From: Lactarius indigo
Taxonomy: Eukaryota > Basidiomycota > Agaricomycetes > Russulales > Russulaceae
Direction of reading: 5' to 3'
Assembly (NCBI GenBank): GCA_025766275.1
Contig: JAFKAC010000011.1
Coordinates: 806,001-870,000, forward strand
Length of the DNA: 64,000 nucleotides
Shown one piece after another: positions 21,481-49,504 of the stretch. Position 1 is the first letter of the stretch; each line of letters starts with the position of its first letter. The notes beneath the pieces were generated by a model that worked only from the letters and a program-made list of their open reading frames with translations, made no database searches and was not told where the DNA came from. The translations under genes were made by a program, and so were the position numbers.

Positions 21481-21977
21481 GTGCTCATATAATATTGGGA
21501 TTCAGTGCAGCAGGAAATTAGTATTACGGGGACGCGCGAGCGGTTGGTGGTCGGATCAGAGTAGAGCGTATGCTCCCGTCTCCGCAATATTATTCACAGA
21601 CAACCATTTAACTACAGTAGTATAATAATCATCTAATACTTGGGTCTAGCCTTGGAACTTTCCTTGGTGCTTTCCGGGCTGTGGTGTCTCCCAAATTTGT
21701 TTACACACACAAGATTTCTCTGTATTTATAGAGAAATAATATACTATTGCCTTCCCATGAACTGATTCTCCAGACGTGACATCTACCAATTCGACACAGG
21801 ACGAGCAGAATGGTCATCAAGGTGGTCATCTCGTTGGAAACTTGATGCCGGGAACGTACGGCGTCAAGGACAATTAAACGACAGAAACAAGACGAACCGT
21901 ACCTTGGAAGAAAGCGAGGAGGGAAGTGAGGATACGCATAGGAAAGACGGGAAAATACTAGTGACCCGCAAAAATAA
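21481..21977. other. Intergenic, AT-rich
   Basis: About 500 bp between the Cys-cluster gene and the tRNA; no coding chain seen. Confidence 0.4.
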
Positions 21978-22048
21978 GACCCGACCGTGGTTCGAACACG
22001 GGACCGCACGATCTGCAATCGTATGCTCTACCACTGAGCTACCGAGTC
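21978..22048 (-). tRNA. tRNA-Cys (anticodon GCA)
   Basis: Read on the minus strand, a 71-nt cloverleaf folds fully. The acceptor stem GACTCGG/TCGGGTC has two G-T pairs. The D arm is GCTC-AGTGGTA-GAGC, the anticodon arm TACGA-TTGCAGA-TCGTG with GCA at the anticodon, and the T arm CCGTG-TTCGAAC-CACGG. The D loop and T loop carry A box- and B box-like sequences (internal RNA polymerase III promoter). There is no intron. On the transcribed strand a T-run (cttatttttgc) follows the 3' end and may act as terminator. It lies 100 bp upstream of RPN3 in the opposite direction. Confidence 0.93.
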
Positions 22049-27487: not shown

Positions 27488-28793
27488 ATGGCCTCCGTAC
27501 TCAACCTTTTTCGTGATATTATCTACAAGTTGTGCTCTACAGGAGGTTTTGTTCGCCTTTTCATCGGGCCTTGGAACTTGTTTTTAGCCTTCCTCGGTCG
27601 CAGGTTGGGTGTTTGGCGCCTGTGGGACAACAGAAAACGGTGATCATTCCCGAAAGCTGAGCAGACACAAAGTTCGTCTCCCTACACTGGGAAAAGCCTG
27701 GACTTGCGGGAATGTGCGGCAGCAGCAAGTTACATTCCAGTGTCAGCTCAGCGACAAGGTCGGCAAGTCACCCGAGTTCATATTACATATCGAGTGCAAC
27801 CCAGCAACCATAACCACAATCACCAACCGCATCAGATACCCTTCATATATCCCCTGCAAACCTCACAGTGGAGCTTCCGAGTCACCGAGATCATGTCAAC
27901 CCTTCGCCTGTCTTTGACGCGAGGGTCGACCCTAACCGTAGATCTACCGATTCGAGCATTCGGAGACGCTCAAGCGACAGGCCCTCTATCATCCAAACAC
28001 ATTCGTGAGAATCTTTGCCCACGCCAGTCAGTCAACCAACGCAATTTCCTAGGGCTCACCATCGCCACTTTGGACGTGGGCCTTCTGTGTCGCCGTCAAG
28101 AACGTCATCGAGATCACCTTCCCCGACGCCTCAGCTCCCTCGTTTTGAAGTTGATGTCACAAACCCACATCCTCAACTGCAGGTTGACAGAAGAGACAGT
28201 CCAATACACCCTCCCTCAGTTACTTCCCACGGACATACGCAACAAAACCCACCAAGTATGCGCGGACAAGACAGGAGGCAGTCTTCGATGAGTGTGGTCG
28301 TGGGAGTAGTGAATCCGTCGACAGATTCGCTCTCGGTCCCTCTCAGGATTTTAACAGATGGACCACCACTGACAGAGGAACCGTACAACATAGACTCTCC
28401 AACTGACCATTTGTCCGTCCCCGACACTGTCGATCTACGTGAAGGATTACCCCAATACAATCCGACGTCCTCGTCCTCTTCTGTTTCATCGAACTTGGAC
28501 CCGCCTGCTGGTCGCCCCTTACAATTAATAACACCCGAACAAGTTCCAAGATACACAAAGGATGTCACAGTGCAGGTAGATAACATTATTGCGACTATCA
28601 ATCGCTTACGCCTTTGGCAGACCTCGCGAAAGCACCTACTACGAAATTCCGCCTTTGACAAGGACGTTTCCTCAGTATGTATGTAACTAGATAGTTTTCA
28701 ATGTCTAATGAAGACCCCTCCTAGCATCTCACGTCAGACTGGTCACTTGGAAGATCAAGTGGAAGATTGCGCTTCCTGGGTGCCGGAAACCAA
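27488..28793 (+). pseudogene. WW-like membrane protein copy C2, 5' segment
   Basis: Begins MASVLNLFRDIIYKL at 27488, as in C3. After LAFLGRRLGVWRLWDNRKR an in-frame TGA follows, where C3 continues. From about 28000 the homologous reading (RSPSPTPQLPRFEVD, LQLITPEQVPRYTKDVTVQV) is in another frame, so at least one frameshift has also occurred. The donor used in C3 after QVE (GT) is AT here. The final exon reads CASWVPETN and stops where element 1 inserts, between the N codon's first bases. It is the first of three pieces of one gene. Confidence 0.75.
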
Positions 28794-28808
28794 CATCAGC
28801 AAATTCCC
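28794..28808 (+). repeat. Left terminal inverted repeat of element 1
   Basis: CATCAGCAAATTCCC, identical to the reverse complement of 39716-39730. Target duplication AA precedes it. Confidence 0.85.
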
Positions 28809-28829
28809 TGCGAAATTCCAATGCCATCA

Positions 28830-29060
28830 TGATGGAATATAATATCTGTTTTCACATTATAATATCCGTTTTTCCTGTATAATGTCCACAATCCCTTATT
28901 TAGCATAATGTGTCTGGCTCGTATATTATATTATTTTAGTGATGCCATCATTACAGCAGAATAGTCACATTGTAAGCATGTTGTTACAGAGCGACAAGGT
29001 GGTTATAAGGGGGTTATAATATAATTATATCATAGCCACACACCCGTTATTGGCTGATTC
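28830..29060. repeat. AT-rich subterminal region of element 1, left
   Basis: Short motifs such as tataatatc followed by gtttt recur at about 28840-28875, and ATAAC/GTTAT words recur here and before the right end (39510-39715). Subterminal repeats of this kind bind transposase in CACTA elements; that role is inference here. Confidence 0.45.
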
Positions 29061-29524
29061 TGATCGTGTTGTGGTCGGGTTAGGGGGTAATAGTAATCAA
29101 ATTTTGATTCCGCTGCACATGAATTGCGAGGGACCCACGATGTGGTTATAAGTTTATTGTGAGGCCATAGGGATTAAGTTGCTATCAGATTGTACACTCA
29201 TTATGTGTTGGTTTCAGTTTCACTGTGACCTGATTGGGAGTGGGTCATAACGGAGGCCTAATGCCATAGTAACGCGTTCACGAGATGCACACAGAGGGGT
29301 TGCTGTATGATTACGACGGGATTATATGGTCCTTGTAAATGGTTCATCGTATGATTATGATGGGGGTATTGTCGAGTCGTGAGCGTATTGTCACCTCAAT
29401 GCTATTGTATCATATATTTCATCACGCCGGCAGCCTTCTCACAACCGACTTAGGGAACAGCCTGAGACCAAATCTGAAGTTCATTATATCTATCGAGAAC
29501 AAACTACTAGTATAGAAAACGAAT

Positions 29525-31245
29525 TTACTCTGAGGTATTTCCCATGGCAATCTCACGGGCAGCACGTTTTGCTTTTCCCTGCTCCCGCATGATCGCCCCT
29601 GCACTGTGCGAGTTCACATCCTCGCTGTTACCGTAGAGTGAGCGAGGGAAAATTTTCCTGGCATTCGGATTAGTGCATAGACTAGATAGAAAATAGGAAA
29701 ACCACTTACTCGTTCCACCACTGGAGGAGGCTTTCTAATTCCTCATCGACCGCCATGAAATCCTTGTAGACAAGGAGTTCACGATAGAAGCCACGGTATG
29801 GAAAACCAGTGTGCTGTCCTGTCACTGGGTCTTGGCTGCCAGGTACAAAGACGGGGTCGGTGGAGAGCGCAAAACGAACCTACATGTCATTGAGTTTAGT
29901 TCACAAACATAGAGAGCTCACTTACCAACGTTGCAATGTAGGCGATCGATTCGAATGTCACCCAGTCTATGTTATGTAAGGCTGCATTTCCTCCACGCGA
30001 TGATCTGTTTGCCACTCTTGCAGAACTTGGGGAAATAAAGACGTGTTTGTATGCCTAGAACACATCATTAGTGTGGTGAATCCACAAACGAATTTAAAAG
30101 CTTACCACAATGAGCAAATTGCTACGCAAAAACCCCTTGTAATAGTCATTAATTTCGAAGACTCCCTTTGGCCAGAGGAAGGAAGGAAGGTCAGCGGCAG
30201 TAATTTCTCGCATGCCACGACGAAGTTCCTCACAAACGCTAAGGACTTGAGTGAATACGGTGTCTAAGCCAATAAAAAAAAACTCACTTGACGTTGTCCC
30301 AATCGAATGTGATAGGACACAGGAGCCTACCAGACGTAAGGTGGTTGAAACCCAGGAGGTGACGCGAACGAGGAAACGCAGGTTCCCAGTCGATGCAAGG
30401 CCACAGGCCAATAGAACTTCGGATGCCGCTCACATCTGCGCGGCGCGCTTGCTTGCGACCAATGTCAATCTGTGATGACAGAAAGTCAGCGAAACAATAC
30501 GAGGCGATTAACGACTTACTATATAGTCAAGGTTGATGGAGAACTCGGGGCAAGCATAATCCCCAGCCCTCCAAATCAGCTTGTTCATCTCCGGTGCTAC
30601 CTTGGTGAGGAGGTGATACTTCCTGTATTGCTGGTTCGAACTAAAGCAGTTGGTCAGATGTTTCAATGACTATGAAAACGACTTACTGCTCAGTGTGTAT
30701 GTCGTCTTCGTCAGTGGTAGGGTCGCGGGACACAGCCTCATCGATCATCACGTTAAACCTGTCCCACATCTCCACACAACGACCAAGAATCATCCCTTTC
30801 TTCTTCCAGTGCTTGTCATTGATGAGAGCTAACGCGTCCTCATAGTGGTCAATAGGACTCCTATAGGCTTACATCAGGTTTTTGTCTGTGAACGGGAAAT
30901 AAAAGTCTTACTCATTGTCTGAGTCCCCCGACCCCTCCCTCTGTCTCTTCCTAGGAGAGGGATTGTCGTCGTCACCGGAACCAGGGTTTGGAGGTGGAGA
31001 TGTCTGGAAGCGTGGGCGACTCTGATGGTGGGGTCCACCGTGTTTCTGAAGGTGCACCCAATTTGTCTGCGGCAGTGGCGGCCACAGTCTTGAGCAGGGA
31101 GACGCACATCTATTTTCTGACTCGTTTGGCCGTATGCACTTTAGAGACATCGGGATAAAGCAAGAGAGGGATGCAAAAGGACTCACCAATGCTGGCCGTC
31201 TATATGTGGTCGCTGCAGCGAAATTGGTGCCGATCCAGTGGTCAT
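29525..31245 (-). CDS. DUF6698 protein inside element 1
   Basis: Seven or more exons on minus, joined by short GT-AG introns, give a DUF6698-like protein, a family expanded in Agaricomycetes with unknown function. The N-terminal part is Pro/Asp/Arg-rich (SPPPNPGSGDDDNPSPRKRQ). Then come DHYEDALALINDKHWKKKG, HLLTKVAPEMNKLIWRAGDY, RADVSGIRSSIGLWPC, RHLLGFNHLTSGRLLCPITF, ADLPSFLWPKGVFEINDYY, KGFLRSNLLIVVAYKHVFI, SPSSARVANRSSRGGNAAL, VRFALSTDPVFVPG, FYRELLVYKDF and ESLLQWWNEKIFP. It ends AMGNTSE at 29525. Frames and splice sites look intact, so it may be expressed. The start is uncertain (31245, or 31266). It lies within the inverted repeats and points away from the transposase, so it travels with the element. 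Confidence 0.72.
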
Positions 31246-32640
31246 GAGCACCAAGTTAGTGACCATGGACGGGAGAGCTAATAGGAATTGTACACTGAGT
31301 TAGTCCTGATGAGCACTCGTCCGAAAGGTCTGACACTGGCACGAGTTGCAAACTGAATTGGTGGCCCATACTAGTACGGTTGTGACATGTGATCCATGCG
31401 TTATGCCATCACAAACTCGTCGTAATTTCGAATTAAACGCTCAAGTTCATTCTCACCATTCATTCGACATTTCTAGGACTCGGCTTCTGTTGAGCACGAT
31501 TGTGCGGTCATATCCTTCTGGGGCTTGCCATCTCTCTTCTCAGTCGCTCAATTTGATTGCTCTGAGCACCAGAAATGGACAATACACATAAATTTATCCG
31601 AGTCAACGTTCCTCTCGTCTCTGCATACTTCTAGTCCCTCTATTTGAAAGTCTCTCTGGGAAATGGAAGCGGGAAAATACTTATGTGGTATGGTGCTGCA
31701 TTGGTGCGTGTTTCATGCTGCAATGACAATTCTTACTTAACTCCCCCCATAGCTCAAGTTTCATGACCCATCGTCACCCTCAATCGCAATTTGTCCAAGG
31801 TACTGGCTGGTGAAATGATTGGATGTTGGGAGCGGTCCAATTTACTAGGTTTGGTTACGAGTGCCAGTGCATTGCGTCAAGACATTTTGCGTCCTTTGTA
31901 TTGACTATTTCTTTTTTGCTTAGCCGATGCTCACCATGTGCTATCATGTCTCGTGGTGCTTAGGGGTAAGGGGGCGAGAAATTAGTTGGGTGAGGGAAGT
32001 CGCTGAGAGGGGAGGTGCGTGTACTCCTCCAATTCACGTTTCGTGACCTACTAAGGTCCCCCAACGGTCTCCCTATTTTCTCCTCTTCGATTCACGAGAA
32101 GAAGCTCAGACATGTGAAGGCCGTGTCCCGGATCGTCTCCATTTTCCTTCCCATTCCCGGCCTCCGTCGACATCTCTGTCTCATCGTCCCCAATTTGTCT
32201 CTTTTACACCAATTTGTTTTCTCCCATTTCTCGCGTTGACAAGGCACACTCGTCTTGCTACTCACTTGCGTGTCAATAGTATTCACCGCGTACGCTGTTT
32301 CTCAGCGGTTCGGCCAGAGGAGAAGCAGTGGCGACTCCCTATTCACTGCAGAGCCCTCAACACTCATTTCCGGGTGCAGAGGGCCAAGCGGAGGCCTGCA
32401 GAAAATATGGCAGTGGGAGATTCAAAGTGGACATTATTCCAGTAGTGGAGATTGTACTTTTTTTTTTTTTTTTTGTAGATTGGGGTCCGCAATAGATGTA
32501 TATAAGCTCCTGTAGTTGGCGACCTCAAATTTGACTGGGACGAGTTGGAGTCAGTGCGTGAGAAAACTGAGTCTGTATCTTGAATCAACAAATGTTGATC
32601 AACAAACTGTCAATACGTCTTTCGGTCTACTACACCCATT

Positions 32641-34405
32641 CTAATGTACACAGACCTGGTCAATTTCCCCTTCATCCCCAGCACTCTTGCCACCAACATT
32701 GCCATACACATCCCCATTGAGGGCTACCACTGCCCCAAAGTGGCTTCTCCAGGAGTCTCTGGGCACTAGCCCCTCATCGCTTTCGCCCCTTTCCCACGTT
32801 TCACAACGGTTCTGTGTTATCGTTGCGCCCTGAGTACAATAATGAGGATACGACTTTGGAAAGTGAGCCTTCGGGAATAACCTGTATATAGAGAGATGTT
32901 TGATTGCTCTAGATGCCCGAAGTACATGTTTCTGCAAAAGAGTCTGGTTGGAATCTTCGTTACTCCTCCCACCTTACCCAATTGCAGTGTAGTTCCCTGC
33001 ACCTTGAGAAACGCTTGATCTCAGAAGATTTTAGAGCATGAAATCATAGAGTGCACCACCCGTGCAGTTACCACCTTGCACTGTTATATGGATCAAGTTG
33101 GTGTCCTCATCCCTGATATAGAGCACATAGCCGCCTCCATTATGTTTTCGGAGGTCAGTCTTAACCTCTTTTTTGCAAATCCACGCCACTTAACACGCGT
33201 TGACAGGATGGCGACTCACAGGATGGTGACGCAAGCAACTCACAGGATCAGACTTTAGAAGACGCAGCCATTTCCGAAAGGGTGCCCCGGTCATGACTTG
33301 TAAACAGGTCTCTTTCTCACTGGCACTTACGGACCGTCTCGCGCAGCACCTTGCGTACCTGCGCTGGCGAAAAGCCCATATCGGCCAACATACCCACTTG
33401 TTCTGCACTTCAAGTTGGCTCTGTACCGCCGCCACCAGCACCACCGTTCGTGACACACTGCAACTCTCAGCTGGCTCGCTCTGGTGTATCGAGAATTATC
33501 GTGCTATAGTTGTTGATATGCAGGTCATCACGTGATATCTTGCCCCTGTCTGAATCTGGATGATGCGCCACCAGCAAGATAGCAGAGATGTCGGGCCATA
33601 CACCCAACAAATTTCTTTGCGGTGAGCTTGGAATTGTGACTGTTTTTATTAAATTGGTCGGAGGACTGCCGGAGGTCTCGATCGTTTCCCCCACTTACCC
33701 AGCGCAAGGTATTGTCGATGTAAGTATTGCTCGCAGCGAGCGCAGGATGGTCACTATTGGCACCGTCGTGGAAGACGGTGCCAATAGGAAAGGATATAGC
33801 TGCCATGTTCACGTAGCGAACGATGGGTTCTTGTCAAAAATCCGCAAACTTGGGGTAAGATCATTGTTTTATCTACTAGATGCTCTAATCAACCTCCTAG
33901 CACCACTTCAGACCTGGTCTGCGCCTTCTACCACCCTTGGGACCGCCTCGCCGTAGGACAACTCGAATTGAATCGGTTCAAATGACCGATCGATCTCGTC
34001 GCCCGATCCATTCGCAAGGTTCAGGTGGACCCTTAAGTTCATCCTGATATGCCATCCTGCATATATCTATGGAAGAGGTAAGTTAGCGGTTTTTATAGCG
34101 CAAAGGGAGGTACTCACCCTAGCTACAAGCGACCCAATGGCTCCCTTCAAGCCCTTCCACACCGCCTTTAGGAGTGCGCGCAAGAGCCTACTTGCAAGGC
34201 CAAGTAACATACTAAACGAATGGTAAGTCGTTTGTTTGCGACAATGCGAGGGATAACTCACATTTGGAATCTGTTTTGAGTAGGGATGATTGGGGAGTTG
34301 ATGGTGATGAGTGAGTGGGTAATCGAGCGCCGTCGTCGACGCGTACGGGTAAACGAGCGCCGGCGTCGACCCGCGCGGCACCGGCATTGCTTCAAGCAAA
34401 ATCAA
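32641..34405 (-). CDS. Possible cargo gene of element 1, not recognised
   Basis: Exon-like stretches on minus, each bounded by plausible splice sites. They include LLGLASRLLRALLKAVWKG near 34160, EPIQFELSYGEAVPRVVEGA near 33930, VGMLADMGFSPAQVRKVLRE near 33370, NLIHITVQGGNCTGGALYDF near 33090 and WRSHFGAVVALNGDVYGNVG ending at a stop at 32641. The ADMGFSPAQVRKVL part looks like the first two helices of a UBA domain. I could not join all pieces into one frame, so this may be a decayed or fused passenger gene. Confidence 0.25.
33754..33787. repeat. Perfect 14-bp inverted repeat (hairpin)
   Basis: The arm ctattggcaccgtc at 33754-33767 is exactly repeated in reverse complement at 33774-33787, with the loop gtggaa. 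It lies in the unassigned interior of element 1. It could form a stable hairpin in DNA or RNA, or bind a dimeric protein. Confidence 0.7.
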
Positions 34406-35180
34406 CTTGCAGGCTCACATTTTTACGCACTGGCAGCAACCAGAACTTGAAGGGCATTAAGGACTCAGACTCGAGAGTTTTTTTTCGCACCATGCCACCG
34501 CCGCTGCGCCGACTTCGTGCCATATATTATGATTACTACAATACTGTTAAGTCCGAGTCGTTTACAAAAATCGGCGGCACATGCACCGCCAGTCTTGAAC
34601 GCGCTGTGCCCCCCCAACTTCGTATTAGCCTATTAGGATACAGATATTACATTAAATATTAAGTATTAATATTACACAACCATATCTATTGCACTTATTC
34701 TTGACAGATGAGAACTCCAAATTTCAAAAGACCTAATTTATATTTTTTATTCCCGTCTGGTGGTCTGGCAAGGTGGCACAACCCGGAACGTGATCCGAAT
34801 CTCGATTTAGCACAGAATCTAATTACTCGATCATCCCCCCCTCCAAAAAAAAAAAATGCTCGATCATTTGGGAAGCGTTCAGAGCAGTCAGAGTGTCAAA
34901 ACGGGCTCACTTAGGCCACACTCACATTTTACAGATGTATTTCACACTTCCCTCCTTCCTGCCTCTCCGGTTTTCTTGTCCGTACATGCATATCGCTCCA
35001 CATGTTGTCCACTGTTCTCTTTAAACTCTTACTGTTTTAGCGTAATATTGAACAATCCTAGTGAACCAAGAGTTCAGTTCAAGTTACAGCCACGGTTCAG
35101 TTTGGTTCACGGTCCATTTTGGCTTTTGACGAGGCGGCATCTTACATCACTCACCACCCATTTTTCGCACTCTTTCCACC

Positions 35181-38100
35181 ATGGCAGAAACAGGCCGGTG
35201 CTATGCATGTGGTCGGTTCTTTGCACATGAGGGTAACCTCACAAGGCACCTTCGTAATAATTGTGAGGTTGCCCTCAGACGCTCACGAGAACAGTGGAAG
35301 CGTGGCAATCACAATTTGGCAAAGCTCATTCGCTCCTCAAGGAACAATCAAAGCCATATACAAGATGAACCTCTTTCTCGTGGCCACTCATCTCATGTCG
35401 AACCAATCGACTCGCCCCAGCACACAACAATGGTATGTGTCACAACCTATCGTTTGTAGCATCAGGGTCGTTCTTAGGTTTTGTCTAGGATGTCATACCA
35501 GAGGGTGTCGATGCAATGGACGCCTCTGATCCACCTCCTGATAGGCGTATCCGACGACCAACCTGGAAAATAAGAGAGAGCATGCGAGACGACCTGCCTG
35601 AGGGGCCAGGCGCGCTCACCTCACCAGCCGTTGCTACAGCCAACAACACTGGACCCATGTCAACAGACTCCGGACCTGCATCACCGCCACCCACCTCCCC
35701 ACATATACTCTCTAAAGTATGCACCATCGCAAACCAATTTGCACTTGTACGGGAATACCAACAACACCCTTCGGCGATACCAGATTCCCAGATTTCATGG
35801 GAGTCACTAGTTCCCAATCATACTGACGTACTTCCCAGGAAACACAGGAAGGTATCCGACATCATCTACCCATACCCCAATATCAGCTCATTTTTGTACA
35901 ATTACACCTGGAAGCGGATGGGCGGTATCATGTCAGCCTCAAGCCAGGTATCGATGACAAAGACTTTGAGAGACGAACGCTTCAAGACATGCGACCTTGA
36001 AGGCGTCAATTTCCTTGGAATAGAGAAGAAAATTACAGATGACGTCCAGTTGCCGTGGGGTGGTAATGGGTGGCGTCGTACTAACATCATTATCGAAGTC
36101 CCTACAGGAAAGAAGCCAACTATAGCTTCACGCCGTACAGAGGCAAACACACGTGCACGAATGCGACGACACGACCAGGTCGACCCCGATGCTGACCCCT
36201 ATCCACGACACAAAATTCCAATTCACAATGTCCGCACACGATCTCTCCTCCATTCTATGGTCGAAGCCGTCCAGGAAGATTTACCGAGTAGAGAGGTACA
36301 CTGGCATGGCTATGAAGAACGTTGGCAACCTCCCTATCCTGGTTTTCCCTCTGAATGTGTTTGGGGCGATCTCTACACTTCAGATGCGTTCTTGAGTGCA
36401 GAACGTGACCTCCTTAGCTCACAAGTCGATCCGTCGCGCCTTTGCGTCATCGTTGCCTATATGTTCTGGTCAGATTCTACCCACCTCGCACAATTCGGAC
36501 AAGCCAAGGCATGGCCCATCTACGCATACATAGGGAATCAGACAAAGTATACACGTTGCAAACCCTCTGCGCGATCGGTTCGAGTTATTGGCTATATTCC
36601 TCCAGTATGTGTGTTTTACTTTCCGATACTGATCTAATGTAATATTGTTTAGCTCCCCGATTCCTTCGCTGAGGAGCTAAAAGCTTGCGGTGTCCCACAA
36701 ACACCCTCCCTCCTTACACATTGTCAGCGCGAACTATTCCACTCAGTCTGGAGGCTTATATTGGATCCAGATTTCCTCAATGCGTATGAGCACGGTGTAC
36801 CACTCACATGTTCTGATGGTATCCTTCGTCATGTTTACCCTCGAATATTCACATATTCAGCCGATTACCCAGAGAAGTAGGTCGCTTCACTTTAGGCCAT
36901 ACTTCATTCACGCCAATACATAGGGTCTTGATTGCGACAATCCGTGACATGGGGGGATGTCCATGTCCACGGTGCACAATCAAAAAAGAGAACTTCTACG
37001 CTCTTGGGACAACGGGTGATACTTCTGATCGCATCTCCAAGGTTCGACGTGACAATGACGACTTTCGGTCCATTGTTGAAGAGGCACGCGACAACATCTA
37101 TCGAAAGGGGTACACGCTCCAGAGTGAACCTGGCGTTGAGCGCCTCCTCAAGGGGGACTCTCTTGTTCCAACCCTCGTAAGTTAGTTGATTCCGGATGCA
37201 GGGTATTATGAGCTCATTTCAACACCAGAACGCATTTTCGCACTCCCTCAAGGACTTCAATTTTGACATCTTCCTCACCCTTGTCATTGACATCTTGCAC
37301 GAGTTCGAGCTCGGAGTATGGAAGGCCCTCCTCACCCATCTTATACGGATCCTCCATTCTCTTGGCGCGAAGCAAGTCCAGGAGTTCAATTCTCGGTATG
37401 TACGCAAATTCTCGTGTTGCACTACCTGACCCTCACTGTTATATGAGCTTTCGAGAAATTGTGCCGTTTGGTCGCTCGACAATCCGTCGTTTTACTCACA
37501 ATGTCGCGGACTTAAAGAAGCTTGCTGCCCGAGATTTTGAGGACATTCTTCAGGTGAATCTGCTTTATCTGTTCGTATATTCGGCGACTTAATTACTCTT
37601 ATCAGTGCTGCATCCCATGCTTTGAAGGACTACTACCCACCACGCATGACAAGACCACTGCCGAATTATTATTTGTTGCGTCGTACTGGCATTCGCTTGC
37701 CAAACTACGCCTTCACTCGGAAACTACACTCAATATACTCGATAATGTTACCATCGTCTTTGCCAAGTTACTTCGCCACTTCGCTGGAGTTACCTGCCCA
37801 TCCTTTGATACCATCGAGACTGATCGTGAGTACAATGCAAGACGCAGGGCAACTGACAAGGTGTCCTGTCAATCAACCTCCTCTGCCAGCGCTGGTGGCA
37901 AGCGACCGAAAACATTCAATTTGACTACGTTCAAACTACACTCTCTTGGGGACTATGTCAAGACGATCAAGATGTTTGGTACAACAGACTCCTATAGCAC
38001 CCAAATTGTGCGTTTGTGTGTGACCCATATGAACAGTTCTAACTTTGCGATAAACAGGGTGAGCTCGAGCATCGCACAGTCAAGAGGCGCTACGCACACA

Positions 38101-39310
38101 CGAACAAGCAACGATTTATTGATCAGCTGGTGACTATGGACACCCTTGAGGCAGTTCATGAGCGAATGCACGCCGAGTTGGCCAATGCCGGGAGTGATAC
38201 AACAGCAGCTGGGCTGAGCGACACCGCAGGCGACACTATTGGCACTAAGGAGAATTTTGGCAAGCGGTATCACATCGCTCAAGATCAGTCTAATATGATT
38301 TATCTCCCTGCTTTTCTCAAGGACCCCAAAAATGCCACTGAACCCGCTTTCAAGGTATGTACCAACACGCAGAAAATATATCATGTCTAACCATGTGACT
38401 GACAGGATTTTGTGCACAAATTATTACGCCATTTGCTTGCCTGTCATCTCCAGCAAGTCAGCGTCAGCGATGAACCCGAGTACTCAAATGCGGAACTTGC
38501 TGACATACATATACAATATAACACGATTTACTCACACGCAACAGCCAGAATTAATTACACAACATACGACATAAGGCGAGACTTCGACGTGATTAACTGC
38601 AACACTGGACAATGCGATGTCATGCTGAAGGCCTGTGACGACACCCCAACTCAGCACCCATTCTGGTATGCACGGGTCTTAGGCATTTACCATGCAAATG
38701 TCTACTTTGGTGGCCACTTCGGGAACCAATCGGAATGGATCGACTTCTTCTTTGTACGGTGGTTTGGGCTTGACCCAGACTGGAAGGGAGGTCCCGCCAC
38801 TCGTAGGCTGGACCGTATTGGCTGGGTCCCAGAGCACGATGCGTCTGGCGCATTTGGCTTCCTTAACCCGGCTTGCGTTGTACGGGCGTGCCACCTAATA
38901 CCAGCTTTTACTGAGGGGAAGACAACACGCCTACTTGCTCCTTCTCAAATGTGGGATTCGTGGTCGGGCGATTGGGTCAATTATTATGTCTCGAGGTCAG
39001 TTCTCTGAGGTTTTGAGACTGTATGTTACTGAGTTACACACTTAGGTTCGTGGACAGAGATATGATGATGCGCTTTCTCGGTTGGGGCATCGGGCATCTC
39101 AATCCACCTGATTTCCCTCATGAGGCCAATGAACTTATAGCGTCAGACAGTGATAGGGTACTCATTCAATATGAAAACGCAGTAGCAATGGGGCACACTG
39201 GAGTTTTTGAGGATGACGGCGAAGGCGGCGACGATGATATTTCCAGCACTGAGAGTAACGGCGACGGCTCAGATCAGGGCTCAGATGTTGACTTCGGTAT
39301 TGGACATTGA
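35181..39310 (+). CDS. Plavaka-like transposase of element 1
   Basis: Multi-exon transposase. Exon 1 from 35181 (MAETGRCYACGRFFAHEGNL) has an N-terminal zinc finger (CxxC...HLRNNC). After a Pro-rich linker come KHRKVSDIIYPYPNISSFLY, then SLLHSMVEAVQEDLPSREVH and VWGDLYTSDAFLSAERDL. The catalytic-core motif is FWSDSTHLAQFGQAKAWPIY, where the Asp of SDSTHL is a likely metal ligand. Next come GGCPCPRCTIKKENFYALG, VIDILHEFELGVWKALLTHL, FKLHSLGDYVKTIKMFGTTD, YSTQIGELEHRTVKRRYAHT and a late region CDVMLKACDDTPTQHPFWYA, VYFGGHFGNQSEWIDFFFVR. It ends acidic, DFGIGH. Frames are open through at least nine exons and I saw no clear lesion, so the element could be active. Confidence 0.8.
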
Positions 39311-39509
39311 TTGTAAATGGACGACTCAAATATGAATAGCTACGTTCCCCATGACTGGTACAATACAATGAGTAACGACCGAGTGGGGCCCAGCAGTCGC
39401 AGCAGCCATTTGTAAGGCAAAAAAGGAGGTGCAACGTCGGGGGTCCGATGTCCAATATGGCAGCTAGCCACGCAGAGATGACCCAATGCGCCAGCCCAAA
39501 TGGGTCAAA

Positions 39510-39715
39510 AATTATATTCCGTTATAAAGGCATTGTGACCACAGTATAACAAGTAAAATCTTGGTATAACGGCAGTACAAATGTTATGAAAACCACAAAG
39601 CAATATATTGATGACATATAGGTATTACAGATGTTACACTCGTAGATTAGTAATTATATTTTCGACGAAACCGTGACAATAACCGTGATCCGTTATATTG
39701 CGTCATAACTTTCAC
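39510..39715. repeat. AT-rich subterminal region of element 1, right
   Basis: Repeated GTTATA/TATAAC words (cgttataaagg, agtataaca, ggtataacgg) precede the right terminal repeat, mirroring the left end. Confidence 0.45.
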
Positions 39716-39730
39716 GGGAATTTGCTGATG
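39716..39730 (-). repeat. Right terminal inverted repeat of element 1
   Basis: Reverse complement reads CATCAGCAAATTCCC, identical to the left end. The target duplication AA follows at 39731-39732. Confidence 0.85.
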
Positions 39731-40658
39731 AATCCAGATGGGGCCCTTTACTTCTTCGACCAACAAAGGGTGCGTCTGTTAGCGCTCTTACAACTATGAA
39801 CTATGACCAACCCGCAATTGAAGAGGTTGTTCACTGATACAGACATGTTCGACCCCTCGTTAAGGGAGGAAATGGAAGGGTTCTATCAGTACATACAGAA
39901 GATTCTGCCCAACGATGGGGCTGCCATCCGCTCACAAAGTTGCGATTTAGTGCTTGACATTTTGCCCACGGAAGATGATCAGGTTGTGTGGTCTTATTAC
40001 TACGCCTACCACGAAGCAAGATGCTTGTTCTGGCTCAAATCGTATGACGCGTCCCACATGATTTCTGAACTATTTGGTGTCAGTTCGCCTGCCCATATCA
40101 GTGTGTCACAGAGTCATCTTCAATCTTCAATCTGTTTACTCTAATTTGATGCGCAGGGCATCGATTAGAGGCACTCTATTGGTATCAGCTATATTAGGTT
40201 AGAATCTTTTAAAGTGTTGTTCCTCTTTTTAGGACCCACTGGTCTCTCTTTCCGGCCGTTTTTGAGGGCCGCCGTCTTGATAGTGCGGGCGTCGATCTTG
40301 TCGTATGGCTGCCTGGGTAAATTGTGTTTCTTTCTCTCTTTTTGCCGCAGAACTCAGCACACGTATCACAGATGTGATGACTTCAAAGTCCTCGACTCTG
40401 CCATTCGATAATGATACGATGCAAAACATGCTTGCACTTGTACGAGATGCCAGAAGTAGATCAGAGTACTACGAATGTGACCCGTGTCACTGACTCGGAC
40501 CTTGTGGCTCAGAATTAAATGCCGGTTTGGTGTACCACACTGCCGGATCTAGTGAGTCACAGTAAAGATAGTTGACTTGTTCTTTACTTATTGAGTTGTA
40601 TGTTTCTTAGCTCGATTGCTTTCTTATTTTGGTAAGCCTAGAACGATCGCTGTTGCAT
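39731..40658 (+). pseudogene. WW-like membrane protein copy C2, middle segment
   Basis: Continues C2 after element 1: NPDGALYFFDQQR completes the WW-like motif. Then KRLFTDTDMFDPSLREEM, LVLDILPTEDDQVVWSYYYA, EARCLFWLKSYDASHMISEL, LEALYWTHWSLFPAVFEGRR, and PFDNDTMQNMLALVRDA. Relative to C3 (VDELVGVLSHGCM) a 14-nt deletion after the GVD codons at about 40295 shifts the frame. The segment ends in what is an intron in C3, where element 2 is inserted. Confidence 0.75.
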
Positions 40659-40694
40659 CATCAGGAAAAACCTCCCACGCTAGCGAGAGATAAT
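40659..40694 (+). repeat. Left terminal inverted repeat of element 2
   Basis: 36 bp, CATCAGGAAAAACCTCCC then acgctagcgagagataat. It matches the reverse complement of 48360-48395 with one difference (a/g at position 19). Confidence 0.9.
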
Positions 40695-40960
40695 AAGCGA
40701 TAATTTATTGAAATTATTGAAATTATCTCGTTTATCATGCATTATGTTGCCCCCCCATAATTTATTAATAATCTCGTGATAATTTGTGATAATCTCGTGA
40801 TAATGGGCAGGTATTTTCAAATAAATTATCAATAATCAACCTTCGGATTATCACCATTATCAAACGTCAAACGTCCAAATGTTTTTTCAAATTTCACAGA
40901 TTATTCAAATTAAATTAGGTAAAGATAATGTGATGATAATGTGATAATATAAAGAATGGG
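40695..40960. repeat. AT-rich subterminal repeats of element 2, left
   Basis: Dense gataat/attatc words, among them two direct copies of ataatctcgtgataat at about 40770-40805. Likely transposase-binding sites, by analogy with CACTA elements. Confidence 0.55.
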
Positions 40961-41167
40961 CACGCTGCACATGCAAGTGGACAAAAAACGAGCAGACAAA
41001 ATAGAGAGAAAAGACAGGAACCACAGGGATTTAGGAATCACGGTTGACTAATAAAGGCGTGTTAGTAGTGTTAATTACAATTGAAGGTGACAAACTGACC
41101 GTGAATTCATTTGCTGTAACTTGCCAGTGGACAGCGTGTTGAAACTGCTGGTGCACATGTTCAGTCC

Positions 41168-43638
41168 TCAGTCCTCAAGATCGTCGAGATCAAGATCAGC
41201 AATCTCAACATCAGGTGAATCATCATGTCCGGTGTTGGAACTGTGGCGACCTAGTCAGAGTAGCAATCATTTGATAAAAAGTGACTCACCTGGCTTGGGT
41301 ATATATATCGGCCATCATAACATGATATGCATTTGGCCGGCTGTTCAGGATATAGTTGAGTGTACCAGCATTGCAGCGGTACACATCCAAATAGGTGTTG
41401 GCGGAGAATTCAAACACCTGCGGTGCACCAGTACGCCACTCATGAAGTGTGGCATACATCTAATCAAAAGAGTTAGTAGTATGTGACTTATATCATATCA
41501 ACTTACCGCAGTTGCAACCAGTGCAACCATGGGCACTGGGACCTCACGAGCTAGTATTCCGTCATGGCCTTGATGTACCGGGAAAAGGTGTTCAAAGCGT
41601 GATGCAAAAGATGACTTCCCACCAGTGAAAAAGAGGTCCCGTATGACCGAAATGATGCATTCATTACGGTAGGGGTGTGTACGTGGGGGAGTTCCGACAA
41701 GGAGGCCTCTCTGACAAAAGGTCAGATCACATCAGCGCAGCGTTTTACACTTACCTTGGTCGGAAATGTGTAGTTGAAATTATGCAGCTGCAGACGAACA
41801 GCTTGAGCGATGTTGTTCACCGACCCAAAGGCAACCAATGCGGGTACACAGATAGCATTGCAATGGTCCTTAATTTCACTCCGCATAAGTGGGACATGAA
41901 CGCGAACCTGTTACACAATGTCAGTACCCATCGCGCACACACCCGCCTGTACGCCACAACGCCGACACGCCTGCCAACCCACCCCTATCCCCAAGCATAC
42001 AACAACCACGCGTGTGACCGCAAGCCATCACCGCTGACACTGTGAGCCGTCGCCGCCGACACTGCGAGCCGTCACCGCCGACACTGCAAGCCATTGCTGC
42101 CGACACTGCGAGCCATCGCCGCCGACACTGCGAGCCGACACTGGAGGCATGCCACCTCTGCAAGCCATCGCTGCCGCCTCCGCGAGCACCATCACAACAT
42201 TAATGACACTTACCAGTGGAACTACTTTTGCTAGGTAGTCTTCGTCTTGCTGGAGTCGGCGTTGTATGTGTACAGCACCAGGTTTAAGTTTCTCGGCAGC
42301 AGTGATGAGACTCTCCTTGGTGAAAGCAAACGCGATAGGTGCAGTCGGGAATGCGTGATTGAACATGAGGGACGCTCGCAAGTGCTCGATCGCCTCTTGA
42401 ACCACATTGCGGACTAATGGGTACTGGTTGGTCAGCAGAAGTTTATTCGCACCGAGAGGTAATAGGTCCGTATCAGTGGGCCACATGGCCCCAGAGTAGT
42501 CGGTTGTCGCCTCCGTCTGTGACGTGGTTGCGGCAGCTGATTAATGTCAGCCACGCGGCAGATGGTTGGCGAGTCATTACTCACCTGACAGATCGATAGT
42601 GAGTGCCCCGAGCTCAGCCACGCGGCAGATGTTCGGCGAGTCATTACTCACCTGACAGATCGATAGTGGGTGCTCCAAGCTCTGACAGAGTCCCGGAGCG
42701 AGGAGTAGACACCGCAGACCCATGGTTCTTTGCACTACCAGACGCATCAACATCCAGCACATTCCTGTTGGGAGTCTGCACGGTTCCAGGTGGAGCGACA
42801 TCCACTCCCAGCCAGGAGGGCCTCTGCGAAGTAGTCATCAGTTTTTCAGATGTATTCGAGGCTGTTGTGGACTTACCTCTGTTACGGTGACTTCAGAGGT
42901 CTTTGCCGAGACCTTGCGAGTGACGTTGACTGTTTGTTCATCTTCCAACCAGTCATCTTCATTTTCGATGTCGTCCTCGTTGAGATCAGAGTCACGGGAA
43001 AATTGGTTGCCGGGGTCGACTTGAAGAGACGTAAGGGAATGGGTGTTGTCACCGCGGCCAGGGTAAAAAGACGACGCTGAAAATTTTCGTAAGTTTGTTG
43101 ATTGTTTGGTAGGCCAAATATGCTTAGTAATTACTGCGTTTCAACTGTCGTTTGCCCTTGTCCATCACAACGCCATCACTCACTGGCGCACCCATCGTTT
43201 CTCCTTCGCTGGGTAACTGGAGCGGCATCGGACGGGCATTGGTAGGCCCTTTTTTCTCAGGTGAGCTTTCTCCACCTGCATTTCTATCAACCACTTACCG
43301 GTGACTCGCGCTCGCTTTGAAGGTATTCCTTGTAGGGCTTCAGTCGGAACAGGGGTTGGGGACGGGACAGTAGCGGTATCGCTTGAAACAAAGGTACGTT
43401 TCCCACGTGCTTGTTATCGTGAGCGATAAGCCTGACTCTATGAGGTTTTAGACTTACTTGCGCGGATGCCAGACAAATCGGGGTTGTTCTGGTTTACTGC
43501 GGTGCGTTGAGTCGATGTAGATGTAAGATCCGGACTCTGGGAATCAAGGACATTTTCACTGTGTGCCCCATTTGTCTGAGAGAGTGCGGCTCTAATATTG
43601 GCCGCGATCAGGCGCGAACGGCGGGTGTTTGGAGCCAT
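41168..43638 (-). CDS. DUF6532 protein inside element 2
   Basis: Multi-exon minus gene. The N-terminus at 43638 reads MAPNTRRSRLIAANIRAALS and a low-complexity Ser/Thr/Pro linker follows over several exons. The conserved domain starts at about 42480 (LLLTNQYPLVRNVVQEAIEH, LRASLMFNHAFPTAP). It continues after a 306-bp intron with RVHVPLMRSEIKDHCNAICV, LHNFNYTFPTKRGLLVG, YRNECIISVIRDLFFTGGKS, SSFASRFEHLFPVHQGHDG, PMVALVATAMYATLHEW and FSANTYLDVYRCNAGTL. It ends with an acidic tail (SPDVEIADLDLDDLED) at 41168. DUF6532 proteins are numerous in Agaricomycetes with no known function to my knowledge. Sequence and splice sites in the domain look intact; exon joins in the linker are uncertain. It is divergent from the transposase gene and enclosed by the same terminal repeats. 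Confidence 0.7.
42021..42152. repeat. 22-bp minisatellite in an intron
   Basis: About six imperfect copies of a 22-bp unit (gagccgtcaccgccgacactgc). It lies inside the 306-bp intron (about 41908-42213) of the DUF6532 gene, which is far longer than the usual 50-60 bp and is lengthened by this array. Confidence 0.7.
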
Positions 43639-43739
43639 TTACGAAGCACAAGAAGACGACAAGACTGAAAGCAAAGGTAAATGAGAGACTTAACGTGTCC
43701 AGTAATGACAGGAATGGGGATGGGGATTCAGGACGAAGG

Positions 43740-44975
43740 TATGTGGGTCTTTTATATCCAAATTTCGTTGGACTAACTAAAAGTGTTGTCCGCCTGCCGT
43801 CCTCTGTTTACAGTTCGAAATCCATCGCACTAACCAAAAGCTTGCTGGTTCATTGAAGCTTTACCTTGCAACGTTCACCCGGTTTGGCTCCGATCTCGAT
43901 GCTTCGATGCGCTACCTTCGTGCACGTGGTGCTTGCTTGACTGGGCTTCTTGCCGTCTTTTTTACAGTCCAAATTCGTTGTACTAACTAAAAGACTCTGC
44001 GCCATCCTCAGCCATTCAAGCTTACTGGTTTACCTTGCAGCGCTCGCTCGGTTTAGTGCTGATCTTGATGCTTCAACGCGCTTCCTTCTCACACGTGGTG
44101 CCCGCTTGACCGAGCTTCTTTCCGTCCTCGGCCGTTCAAGCCCGCTGGTCCACTGAAGCTCTACCTTGCTCATTACCGTCAAGTTGCAGCATTTGCTCGG
44201 TTCGATTCCGATCTCGATGCTTCGACGCGCTTCCGTCTCACACGTGGTGCCCGCTTGACTGAGCTCTTTGTCGTCCTTGGCCGCCCGCTAGTTCACTGAG
44301 GCTCTAGCTTACTGATTACCGCGAAGTTGCAGCATTCGCTCAATTCGATTCCGATCTCGATGCCTCAACGCTCTTCCGTCTCACACGTGGTGCCCGCTTG
44401 ACCGAGCTTATTGTCGTCCTTGGCCGCCCGCTGGTTCACTGAAGCTCTACCTTGCTCATTACCGTCAAGTTGCAGCATTTGCTCAGTTCGATTCCAATCT
44501 TGATGCTTCGACGCGCTTCCGTCTCACGTGGTGCCCGCTTGACCGAGCTTATTGTCGTCCTTGGCCGCCCGCTAGTTCACTGAGGCTCTAGCTTACTGAT
44601 TACCGCGAAGTTGCAGCATTCGCTCAATTCGATTCCGATCTCGATGCTTCAACACTCTTCCGTCTCATGTGGTGCCCGCTTGACCGAGCTTATCGCCGTC
44701 CTTGGCCGGCCGCTGGTTCACTGAAGCTCTAGCTTACTCATTACCGCGAAGTTGCAGCATTTGCTCAATTCGGTTCCGATCTCGATGTTTCGACGCGCTT
44801 CCTCTCGCATGTGGTGCCCGCTTGACCGAGCTTATTACCGTCTTTGGCCGCCCGCTAGTTCACTGAAGCTCCAGCTTACTCATTACCGCGAAGTTGCAGC
44901 ATTCGCTCAATTCGGTTCCAATCTCGATGTTTCGACGCGCTTCCTCTCGCACATGGTGCCCGCTTGACCGAGCTT
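43740..44975. repeat. Satellite of about 142-bp period between divergent genes
   Basis: Tandem copies with the landmark aagttgcagcat at 44181, 44324, 44467, 44608, 44749 and 44891, that is periods of 143, 143, 141, 141 and 142 bp. Each copy contains cgatctcgatgcttc, cacgtggtgcccgcttgacc and ccgctagttcactga or close variants. Two more degenerate copies extend left to about 43860. Before them a shorter repeat (aattcgttgtactaactaaaag and variants) occurs at about 43760, 43820 and 43968. The array ends 35 bp before the transposase ATG, so it fills the shared promoter region. Confidence 0.8.
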
Positions 44976-45008
44976 CTTAAGCAGGATCGTCTACCCTTAC
45001 CCCAAGCC

Positions 45009-48000
45009 ATGAATACCGTACAGATCCTTTGTCCCGGATGTAAGAAGGTATTCAACCCGCGCGGTTTTTCTCAGCACCTTAGCAGATCTCGGCGTGCAGA
45101 CTGCCGTGTTGTGCATGCGGCGTTACAAACACCGTTGACATTTCAAACTGTCAATTCTCCGCAGGCGCCCACTCCAACTCCAGCACCACAGGACACGCAA
45201 GGCGACACTGGTGACGATACAATTTCTGAGCACGATATAGGTATCGTCCGACAATGTGCATGAGACTATCCACTCATATGTATACTTCAGATACTCTGCA
45301 TGCCGCTCACACCACGCATGACGCCGGCACTACCCGAGCGATGGACGTCACAGATGATGGCGGCTTTGTGGATGCCGATGTTTGGGAAGCACTAGTTCAA
45401 GAGATCGAAGCCACAGTCGACGCTGATCAAGGACACGCTAGCGGGGTACAATCGTCGGCTCCACCCCCGTCTGAAACTCTGCGGCCATTGACTCCACCAC
45501 CAAACCCACCCATACGCGACGACAGCGATGGTAACACTACTGGCAGTCGGGCTCAAGTGATCATCGACAGCTTTCCGCATGGTATCCCAGGCACCCCAAT
45601 GCCTAATCCGTTTCAAGGACAATCAGACTATCGGTCCCATGAAGATGTGCTTCATACTTCGGTCTGGGCCCCCTTTCACTCCCAGTGTGATTGGGAGATT
45701 GCGCTTTGGGCCAAGATGCGCGGGCCGACATCGTCAGCTCTGACAGAACTCCTTCAAATTCCCGAGGTATGAACACCGCACCATTCAATTCACATTCTTA
45801 CTGACGTCAAGGAAGGTTACCGACAGGTTAGGAGTTTCGTATAGTTCTGCTAAAGAACTCGATCGCATTATCGACACTTTACCTGGCCGACCACCATTCG
45901 AGTGCGAAGACTTTACCATTGGAGGTGAAAGGCTGTCTTTCTATTTCCGGAATGTAATGCAATGTATTCGGGCCCTTTTTGGTGACCCTGAATTTGCGCA
46001 TGAGTTGGCATTTGCACCAGAGTGCCACTACTCGGATCCCGAGCGCACGTGCCGCATCTATAGTGAAATGCATACCGGAGACTGGTGGTGGGCAGTGCAG
46101 GTGTGTATTCTTTCTCAGACGGATCCAAATACTTACATATCACGGTGACAGACATCCCTCGAATCGCAACAACCCGGCGCGACATTGGTCCCACTGATAC
46201 TGTCCTCTGACAAGACGCAGTTGACCCTCTTCCGAGGGAAGGCTGCGTATCCGGTCTATCTCACCATCGGCAACATTCCAAAGGCCGTTCGTCGAAAGCC
46301 GTCACGTCACGCCCAGCTGTTGATTGGCTACATCCCAACCACCAGACTAGAAGGGGTCGCCAATCAGGCAGCTCGCCGCCGCGCTCTGGCTAATCTATTT
46401 CATTCTTGCATGCGTAAACTACTAGCCCCAGTCACACACTACAGTGAAAGCGGTGTCGTGATGATGAGCGGGGATGGGATCTGGCGCTGGTGCCATCCCA
46501 TCTTTGCCGTCTTTGTTGGCGACTATCCTGAACAGACATTGGTAACATGCACGTACAATGGCCGTTGCCCAAAGTGTACGGTCCCTCTTGACAGACTAGG
46601 CGAGTACGCTAGGTCCCCTCCACGCAGCTATGACAAAGCCATCGACACATTTCTCTTGGCAGACGAGGAGGTCCGCACGTTCCACGCGGCTTGTCGTGAA
46701 GTGGGCCTCAAGCCCGTATTCCATCCATTCTGGGAGTCTTTCCCACTTTCTAATATATTCGTCTCCATTACGCCAGACATCCTGCATCAGTTGCTGCAGG
46801 GCGTCATGAAGCACCTGATGGCATGGCTGAGAAGTGCGTTCGGACCAGCCGCAATTGACGCACGCTGTCGATCACTGCCTCCTAATCACCATATCACTAC
46901 GTTCGCGAAGGGTATATCAGGTCTTTCTCGTGTCACAGGCCTGGAACACAAGAACATGTGCCGAATACTCCTGGGTCTGATCGTCGACCACCCTCTTCCC
47001 TCTGGACAAGCACCTTTGCGGCTAGTCCGAACTGCACGCGCGCTACTTGACTTCCTGTATCTTGCTCAGCTTCCTTCCCAAACAACTGACACCCTGTGCC
47101 GTCTTGAGGATTCCCTGGCTAGCTTCCATAGCAATAAAGATGTTTTCGTCGATCTAGGCATCCGCGATCACTTTAACATTCCAAAGGTACACAGCCTTAT
47201 TCATTACTCATCCTCGATCACGCTATTCGGTACCACGGACAACTACAACACGGAGCAGACTGAGCGCCTTCACATCGACTTCACCAAGGATGCTTACCAT
47301 GCGACAAACCACAAGGATGAATACCAACAGATGACCACCTGGCTGGAGCGCCGTGAGAAGGTGCAACAGCGCATTGCCTTCATCAGACGGCGACAGGGGA
47401 CCGACCAGGCGAACATGCAAATTCCCCAGCCAAGTGGACCTCCACAGCCCGCCACACGGTGTCTAAAGATGACGCTACACCCATCTACGAAGGCAGCATC
47501 ATTTGATGACCTTGCCATGAGGTATGGCGCTGTCGAGTTTCAGGACACGCTTGCCGACTTCATCGCCCAGATGAATCACCCTGATGCTTCAACAGCCAAT
47601 GTAAGGGCTCTGGCCGAAGATACTTTGATTCCTTTTCGCTCAGTGCCAACATATCACAAGATTAAGTTTCAGTCGAATGGCTGCCCAGAAGTAGCGGACG
47701 TGATTCATGTCCGGCCGGAACAAACGGACTCACACGGGCGCCGAATACCATCACGCTTTGACACTGTTCTCATTCGCGATGGCTCTCAAAATAGCACACG
47801 TGGAAATAATGGTCAGTTCCAATTATATCAACGCCCTGATCAATCTAATTGGTACTTAGGCTACCGAATAGCACAAGTCCGTGTTGTATTTCAGTTGCCA
47901 AATAAGGCAATCCCAGAGGTGTTTCCGTCGTTGGACACTGCACCTCCGACCCATCTTGCATATGTCGAATGGTTTTCTCCCATTCCCACCAGGCCCGATG

Positions 48001-48221
48001 CGAATCACTTACTGTACAGAGTGTCTAGGTTGATGCACAATGGTCGCCGGCGTGCTAGTATCATTCCGGTCAGCTCTATCCTTTCTAGTATACATTTATT
48101 TCCTCGTTTCGGTCATCGTATACCTCAGGAGTGGAACACTTATTCAGTACTTGAGCTATGTCACACATTTTATGTAAATCCCTTCAGTGATCGAGATACA
48201 TATCTCAGATTTTTGTCGTGA
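45009..48221 (+). CDS. Plavaka-like transposase of element 2
   Basis: Exons: from 45009 (MNTVQILCPGCKKVFNPRGF, a CxxC...H zinc-finger start followed by SQHLSRSRRADCRVVH), then 45340-45770, a short one at about 45817-46100, and a long final exon from about 46151 to 48221. Motifs: QCDWEIALWAKMRGPTSSAL, SKELD-type RIIDTLPGRPPFECE, the catalytic-core motif LSSDKTQLTLFRGKAAYPVY, IGYIPTTRLEG, MMSGDGIWRWCHPIFAVFVG, GRCPKCTVPLDRLGEY, SITPDILHQLLQGVMKHLM, IPKVHSLIHYSSSITLFGTT and TERLHIDFTKDAYHATNHKD. The Asp of SSDKTQL matches that of SDSTHL in element 1. The 678-codon final frame is free of stops, so the enzyme may be functional. Confidence 0.85.
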
Positions 48222-48231
48222 CTTTCGATTA

Positions 48232-48359
48232 TATTATCATTATATTATCATTATATTATCTCACAAGCGATTATGTCAATTAGTGCCAATTACTAGCGAT
48301 TATCGCCAATTACTAGTACGCCTTCCGCATTATCTGAATTACTAATAATTTAGCGCGGC
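48232..48359. repeat. AT-rich subterminal repeats of element 2, right
   Basis: Three tandem copies of an 11-12-bp unit (attatattatc) at about 48232-48261, and two copies of gccaattactag around a gcgattatc word. It mirrors the left side in content. Confidence 0.55.
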
Positions 48360-48395
48360 ATTATCTCTCGCTAGCGCGGGAGGTTTTTCCTGATG
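48360..48395 (-). repeat. Right terminal inverted repeat of element 2
   Basis: Reverse complement starts CATCAGGAAAAACCTCCC; 35 of 36 bases match the left end. AT target duplication follows. Confidence 0.9.
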
Positions 48396-49504
48396 ATCCG
48401 CTAATGGGTAATGGGTGCGTGTGGTCAGCACACTGGAGATTCTTATGCTTCCATGGTCAGAATAACGCCCTGTTAGAAAGGCACAAGACAGCCTACGCCA
48501 ATACAAAGCAAAAGCGATCACTACTTATCACGTCACTCCCCTGCGCTTTGCTTGGCGCCGGAGGGCTATCTGCGAGAACTGGAGAAAGTGTGGGTAGATG
48601 AGGTCATCATTGAGGTGACTCGGAGAAACTTTATTTCGGGGCTATTGAAAGAATGGGAACAACTGATTCTCTCGGTATGTCATGATTGCGCTACATCCAA
48701 ATTAGAATCCTTATGATTCACGCTAACGGTGTCACAGTCGACTGTGGTACTTTCAGTAAATGTTGGTTTCCTCGCCATCCCAGGCGTGGTCATTTCCAAT
48801 CTAAACAGCAACATAACGAACACAAGCCAGGTCGTTATTTTTACTTCTCCCGCACAGATTGCCAGCTGCATGTCGATAGTGGCCAGCGCAGGGAGCATTG
48901 TGATCGGTTTGCTCTTGATTCGCCACAGCGGTCCCAAACAGAATGAAGATCCAGCAGGCGCCGTAAGTGAGCAGTAGCATTGACGCCTCCCTGCCCAGCT
49001 AAGCGCTCCACGGCAGTCGGACTATCTCTGCAAGAATACTCACCATATCTTCGGTCTGGAACGGTTAGCCATTATCTTCAGTCTCCTGTGGGCACTGCTT
49101 ATGTGGTCGTGGGTCGTCTCCCGTCTCCAACAGCTTTTTAACCCTCTCCTCCGACTCTGGGAAACAGGATGATGACATTTTTTATCGCGCTATTACTCTT
49201 TTGCTTCTGCATCTCAAATGCCTCGACAAGAATATTCGTTGCGGTGACCTCTGTTATCGTGGCCGTCCTTGTTGTATGGTGCATACAAAATACTTGGGGA
49301 TCTAGTGACGCTATGGAAACGTGGTTCAGTGGCCTACTACCGTCCATCATGCGTACGCTAGACAACGCCTGCGCTACGTGCCACCGAATTTTGGCTTCAA
49401 TATACTTCAGACCACGCTCGGAATCTCTTTCTTCAGCTGCACTAGATCGCGCTGGAAGTGTGCCCGCGACATCCTATCGTGGGGGGGTGGGCGTTGTTGT
49501 CTAG
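48396..49504 (+). pseudogene. WW-like membrane protein copy C2, 3' segment
   Basis: Resumes C2 with AHWRFLCFHGQNNALLERHK, where C3 has HWRFLYFHGQASARLERHK. A 2-nt deletion in the TSLSP codons (about 48535) shifts the frame, so LFLAPEG of C3 is lost. Later parts are well kept: STVVLSVNVGFLAIPGVVIS, AQIASCMSIVASAGSIVIGL, MMTFFIALLLFCFCISNAST and the C-terminus to the stop at 49504, giving the four usual membrane segments. Third and last piece of the split gene. Confidence 0.75.

Follow-up and report, generated by a model that had tools for sequence, protein, structure and literature searches.

The stretch of DNA analysed here (the window) comprises 64,000 bases of Lactarius indigo, bases 806001-870000 of contig JAFKAC010000011.1 (contig C13 below), and carries a tandem gene family made up of copy C1 on the minus strand, copies C2, C3 and C4, and a partial fifth. 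Named relatives of C1 come from Lactarius, Russula and other genera of the Russulales, and we found no Pfam domain in C1 or in its 120 listed relatives. A tRNA-Cys gene lies on the minus strand at 21977-22048. Copy C2 is divided into three pieces by two transposable elements, E1 and E2 (Table 1). The initial annotation had given 3339 bp for the copy freed of both, and the arithmetic bears this out, as 27488-49504 minus the two elements and one copy of each target duplication leaves exactly that length. Joined in this way, C2 is 70.2% identical to C1, 76.3% to C3 and 73.4% to C4 in alignment.

Table 1. Features of gene copy C2 and of the two elements within it (positions are those of the window)
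Feature	Position	Strand	Basis or remark
C2, 5' piece	27488..28791	+	holds TGA 27641-27643; frame change ~27748-27763 (against C4)
E1 target duplication, left copy AA	28792..28793		
E1, PlavakaB-type transposon, 10,937 bp	28794..39730	+	terminal inverted repeats, AA duplication, Plavaka domain, sibling on contig C216
E1 left terminal inverted repeat, 15 bp	28794..28808	+	perfect
E1 open frame with partial Plavaka transposase domain PF18759	35489..36634	+	Pfam
E1 right terminal inverted repeat	39716..39730	-	perfect against left arm
E1 target duplication, right copy AA	39731..39732		
C2, middle piece, E1 to E2	39733..40656	+	
C2 candidate intron holding E2	~40632..48428	+	GT..AG by eye, common to C1, C3 and C4; from sequence alone
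E2 target duplication, left copy AT	40657..40658		
E2, PlavakaB-type transposon, 7,737 bp	40659..48395	+	terminal inverted repeats, AT duplication, element-free allele on contig C16, 11 further paired members
E2 inverted arms, including the duplicated AT	40657-40694 / 48360-48397		97% complementary over 38 bp
E2 transposase, first coding block	45368..45769	+	96% to P0121 residues 1-134
E2 transposase, remaining blocks	45789..48221	+	open frames within 45744-46145 and 46149-48221
E2 target duplication, right copy AT	48396..48397		
C2, 3' piece	48398..49504	+	

Both elements had been described from the sequence as complete and Plavaka-like, with the family named from motifs; each has terminal inverted repeats and a 2-bp duplication (AA for E1, AT for E2), and the Pfam model PF18759 (Plavaka transposase) is found in both, so that the description and the family assignment are upheld. 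E2 gives the stronger matches to this model, with E-values of 5.8e-25 and 9e-85 in its frames and 285.2 bits for the long frame. Its transposase matches P0121, a 904-residue L. indigo protein, in two blocks at 89 and 96%. The motif CPKC is at residue 140 of the second transposase frame, and the transposase also contains LHQLLQGVMKH, whose spacing, read by eye, is wider than that of H(3-4)H, a PlavakaB motif placed between the second D and the last E. A match to DUF6830 (2e-05) is barely over the Pfam cut-off. Upstream of the transposase, E2 holds a minisatellite (44061-44975) with a 141 bp unit in 6.4 copies.

In E1 the match to PF18759 covers profile positions 83-162 of 325 in one open frame (3.3e-12, 46.7 bits), the region resembling E2-type transposases is 36359-36877, and a CPRC motif can be read by eye inside the frame 36817-37182. 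E1 matches four E2-type proteins at only 26-28%, from which it would follow that two distant Plavaka lineages are present within one gene copy. Within the 6-kb 5' part of E1, ~32356-35312 matches contig C113 at 92%. The possibility that the elements had captured host genes was considered and rejected: among 21 open frames of E1 and E2, the only match over the cut-off outside the transposase frames is one to DUF6698 (2.2e-07), in an antisense frame of E1 at 30097-30429.

How well do the related gene copies define the ends of the two insertions? The initial annotation had treated the paralogues as natural empty-site controls for both elements, and for E1 this is sound: the insertion point is exonic, the alignments with C1, C3 and C4 are all ungapped across the junction and, as had been claimed, the codons for VPETNPDGALYF join exactly once E1 is removed. 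For E2 it does not hold. The alignment with the paralogues is gapped to the left and to the right of the junction, and the length of the intron interior varies among the copies, and because the E2 site is in this variable intron, C1, C3 and C4 do not fix the ends of E2.

These ends are fixed instead by an allele that has neither element. On contig C16 the gene copies of C13 recur in unchanged order on the opposite strand, and C16:86200-92900 (L085) matches the flanks of C2 at 98.3-98.5%, the 5,632 bp aligned holding 83 mismatches and five indels; by these features C16 is the allelic contig, with both haplotypes present in the assembly. At the E2 site C16 reads GCTGTTGCATCCGCTAATGG, with exactly one AT, and therefore the ends of E2 and its 2-bp duplication are fixed. 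The ends of E2 are thus better supported than the evidence of the initial annotation allowed, and its expectation that the flanks would be contiguous where an element is absent is borne out at this site. It is not borne out at the E1 site, where the 11 bp between GTGCC and CAGATGG are replaced in C16 by AAT, a net loss of 8 bp and the largest of the five indels between C13 and C16 (the other four are of 1-3 bp). Since the paralogues C1, C3 and C4 keep the full length, the 11-bp length is ancestral and the C16 deletion derived; and because C16 lost 8 bp across the insertion point, the single target copy of E1 rests on paralogues that are 70-76% identical.

The host gene itself appears to be in decay. 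The frame of C2 that starts at 27488 is closed by a TGA at codon 52, upstream of E1, the similarity of C2 to C1, C3 and C4 shifts frame, also upstream of E1, and C16 lacks the 5' part of C2 together with the region upstream of it (window 26534-27790), having there ~880 bases that are unmatched in the window. Because of the stop codon, the frame change and the missing 5' part in C16, C2 in its present state is probably a pseudogene in both haplotypes. The earlier picture of one gene split by two transposons is accordingly right insofar as E1 breaks the coding sequence, but E2 is intronic and C2 as it now stands is probably a pseudogene.

It had also been proposed that the ends and target duplications of other copies of each element be compared across the genome. 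We searched all 90.3 Mb (291 contigs), the searches scoring best candidates only, compared the ends of E1-family and E2-family copies, left and right, each together with 1,500 flanking bases, and paired ends by matching contig, order and strand. Among the best candidates, and with the insertions of the window included, this gave 12 paired insertions of the E2 family, whose spans range from 2.5 to 78 kb and reach 29 kb or more in three pairs, and two of the E1 family. The CATCAG..CTGATG termini of E1 and E2 recur in the paired siblings. Identical flanking dinucleotides, for which a chance match is expected in ~1 in 16 cases, are present at 9 of the 12 E2-family insertions (AT, AA, GG, AA, TG, TC, AC, AA, AT) and at both of the E1 family, namely AA in the window and GT at the sibling on contig C216, which has the same ends as E1; this count covers paired ends and omits the unpaired left-end loci (L010, L011, L013, L024-L038, L041-L045) and right-end loci (L048-L050, L061, L068-L070, L075, L079-L084), while L051-L054, L071-L074 and L076-L078 match internally or in part. 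The three mismatches in the E2 family are on C234 (AG/AA), C112 (GG/CA) and C60 (CA/GC).

Joined flanks were then searched against the genome and short stretches of the matches read for empty sites. Counting the window's own, 11 of the 12 E2-family sites have insertion-free counterparts, although those for C35, C40 and C243, and those for C216 of the E1 family, are repeat copies or 82-96% identical and not clear alleles. Exactly one dinucleotide is present at seven empty sites (C13/C16, C237, C68, C243, C232, C228 and C35, the counterparts of the last being two repeat copies). The counterpart of the C40 site has one dinucleotide with a substitution, and that of the site on contig C1 is of equal length with two adjacent substitutions at the target. 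Two of the three dinucleotide exceptions are explained by their empty sites, which show a 2-bp target plus one or two extra bases: on C234 (L016/L063) the target is AA and the left junction carries one additional base, and on C60 (L022/L067) the target is CA and the right junction carries two. For C112, two rounds of the joined-flank genome search found no insertion-free counterpart. In the E1 family, two of the three repeat counterparts of the C216 site have a single GT and the third has GC. The result is a set of base-level pairs of filled and empty sites for PlavakaB elements in a milk-cap mushroom, and sites whose junctions are off by 1-8 bp are places where the precision of the transposase could be studied.

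To what group do these elements belong? Passages of Kojima (2025; PMC12730594) give PlavakaB termini as CATCA..TGATG with target site duplications of 2 or 3 bp. E1, E2 and their paired siblings end in CATCAG..CTGATG, which fits; 2-bp duplications are found in E1, E2, other paired insertions and insertion-free counterparts; the matches of both elements to PF18759, the model by which autonomous Plavaka elements are defined in the relevant part of the Marasmius oreades genome paper (PMC8290104), are all over the Pfam cut-off; and the C(2)C motif of PlavakaB, located between the second D and the last E, has likely equivalents in CPKC of E2 and CPRC of E1, as judged by eye. PlavakaA shares the transposase lineage and 2-bp duplications but has TGT..ACA ends, according to the same passages. 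From domain, termini, duplications and motif, we consider E1 and E2 to be very probably of the PlavakaB type. Some PlavakaB elements are described in that source as carrying a TET/JBP gene; a Pfam search with 21 open frames from the two elements gave no match to TET/JBP, and short exons could be missed by such a search. The PlavakaB elements covered there are from other Agaricomycotina, and the word Lactarius is absent from its main text; our search for literature on the L. indigo genome together with transposable elements found none. What is new, then, is E1 and E2 as further PlavakaB-type members in Lactarius, the family itself being already known.

Our reading of the locus, to which we give a probability of about 0.93, is that E1 and E2 are separate, recent cut-and-paste insertions of PlavakaB type into the same degenerate copy of a tandem gene. 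Observed directly are the termini and 2-bp duplications of both elements, their transposase domains, and an allele that lacks both insertions and is clean at the E2 site. We infer the chemistry of transposition, the former autonomy of E2 and the order of events: the transposase of each element would presumably excise it at the CATCAG ends and join it to a target whose strands are cut 2 bp apart, and filling of this stagger by the repair system of the host would leave the 2-bp duplication. That the elements are instead EnSpm/CACTA proper, or of another superfamily of the CMC type, is very unlikely. They do have a CMC-type transposase and CA..TG ends, and in the sections of PMC12730594 on these lineages most have CA..TG ends and duplications of 2 to 5 bp; however, fungal EnSpm elements are given there with CAC..GTG ends and 3-bp duplications, whereas E1 and E2 begin CATCAG, not CAC, have duplications of 2 bp, not 3, and both score over the 26.3-bit cut-off of PF18759. 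It is still harder to believe that the two-element structure is an artefact of assembly, for while the many related copies of both families could mislead assemblers, each element has a matching 2-bp duplication and the flanks agree with the allelic contig at almost every base. The comparison of two haplotypes within a single genome supports the short duplication published for PlavakaB; otherwise, E1 and E2 are ordinary transposon biology.

The age of the insertions could not be read from total divergence. When the stretch 46149-48218 and the end regions of both elements were compared with siblings on C35, C101, C46, C244, C221, C135, C216 and C26, CpG transitions formed the majority of the differences in nine of the ten comparisons (the exception being E1 against C26, with 10 of 36), and dating by total divergence was dropped. 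The changes from CpG to TpG or CpA are mostly on the side of the sibling, C216 excepted, a pattern that suggests methylation-linked decay of older copies through deamination of methylated CpG. Between E2 and its C35 sibling there are 70 differences over 2,066 positions of the transposase frame, which is open in both (dN/dS 0.58); 57 of the 70 are CpG in E2 and TpG or CpA in the sibling, with three the reverse, and because these are CpG losses in the sibling, E2 looks recent. E1 shows no strong CpG depletion (observed/expected 0.86), while most sibling copies decay at CpG. Over the 2,975 positions that were aligned, from both ends of its 10,937 bp, it differs from the C216 copy at 24; CpG transitions account for 21 of these, 10 on one copy and 11 on the other, which leaves three non-CpG differences. 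The flanks of C13 and C16 differ at 83 of 5,617 positions, 20 CpG and 63 non-CpG, although three of the 83 coincide with the lesion at the E1 site and could be products of the alignment. Non-CpG divergence is thus ~tenfold lower between E1 and C216 than between the haplotypes, a figure that tells when the two copies separated and not how long E1 has been on C13. Taken together, these comparisons suggest that both elements are recent arrivals.

What, then, made the 8-bp lesion at the E1 site of C16? Most likely it is an independent small deletion in a pseudogene. It is conceivable, if rather doubtful, that C16 once held E1 and lost it, so that the deletion would be an end-joined excision footprint and C13 and C16 would represent the filled and the excised state. 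The change from 11 to 3 bp spans the insertion point of E1 exactly, the full length of the paralogues makes it the derived state, and the largest of the five indels would lie no more than 10 bp from the E1 junction by chance in ~0.4% of cases (~2% for any of the five). However, E1 seems to postdate the separation of the haplotypes, with 3 non-CpG differences in 2,975 positions against 63 in 5,617, and its CpG depletion is not strong; the lesion shows no evident remnant of the E1 ends; and C2 is a decaying pseudogene whose C16 allele also has a large 5' rearrangement. Given how few non-CpG differences separate E1 from C216, we keep a footprint as a rival and not as the leading explanation. Excerpts of the literature on Plavaka and on CACTA or fungal excision footprints yielded no description of PlavakaB excision, and a Plavaka deletion in Marasmius is, in the passage concerned, said by its authors not to be an excision. 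If the lesion were a footprint, it would be a natural trace of PlavakaB excision, in an allele whose E2 site is untouched.

Some of the unpaired ends share their flanks. Twelve E2-related left ends (L027-L038) have a common 15-base flank, identical in 11 and with one change in the other, and four matches with this flank (L027, L033, L036 and one without a locus number) are each 2,874 bases from the start of a contig, for which reason the shared flank may well be a repeat duplicated at contig ends. The E2-type left ends L010 (C221) and L011 (C135) likewise have the last 15 bases of their flanks in common, although their 1.5-kb flanks are only 40% identical.
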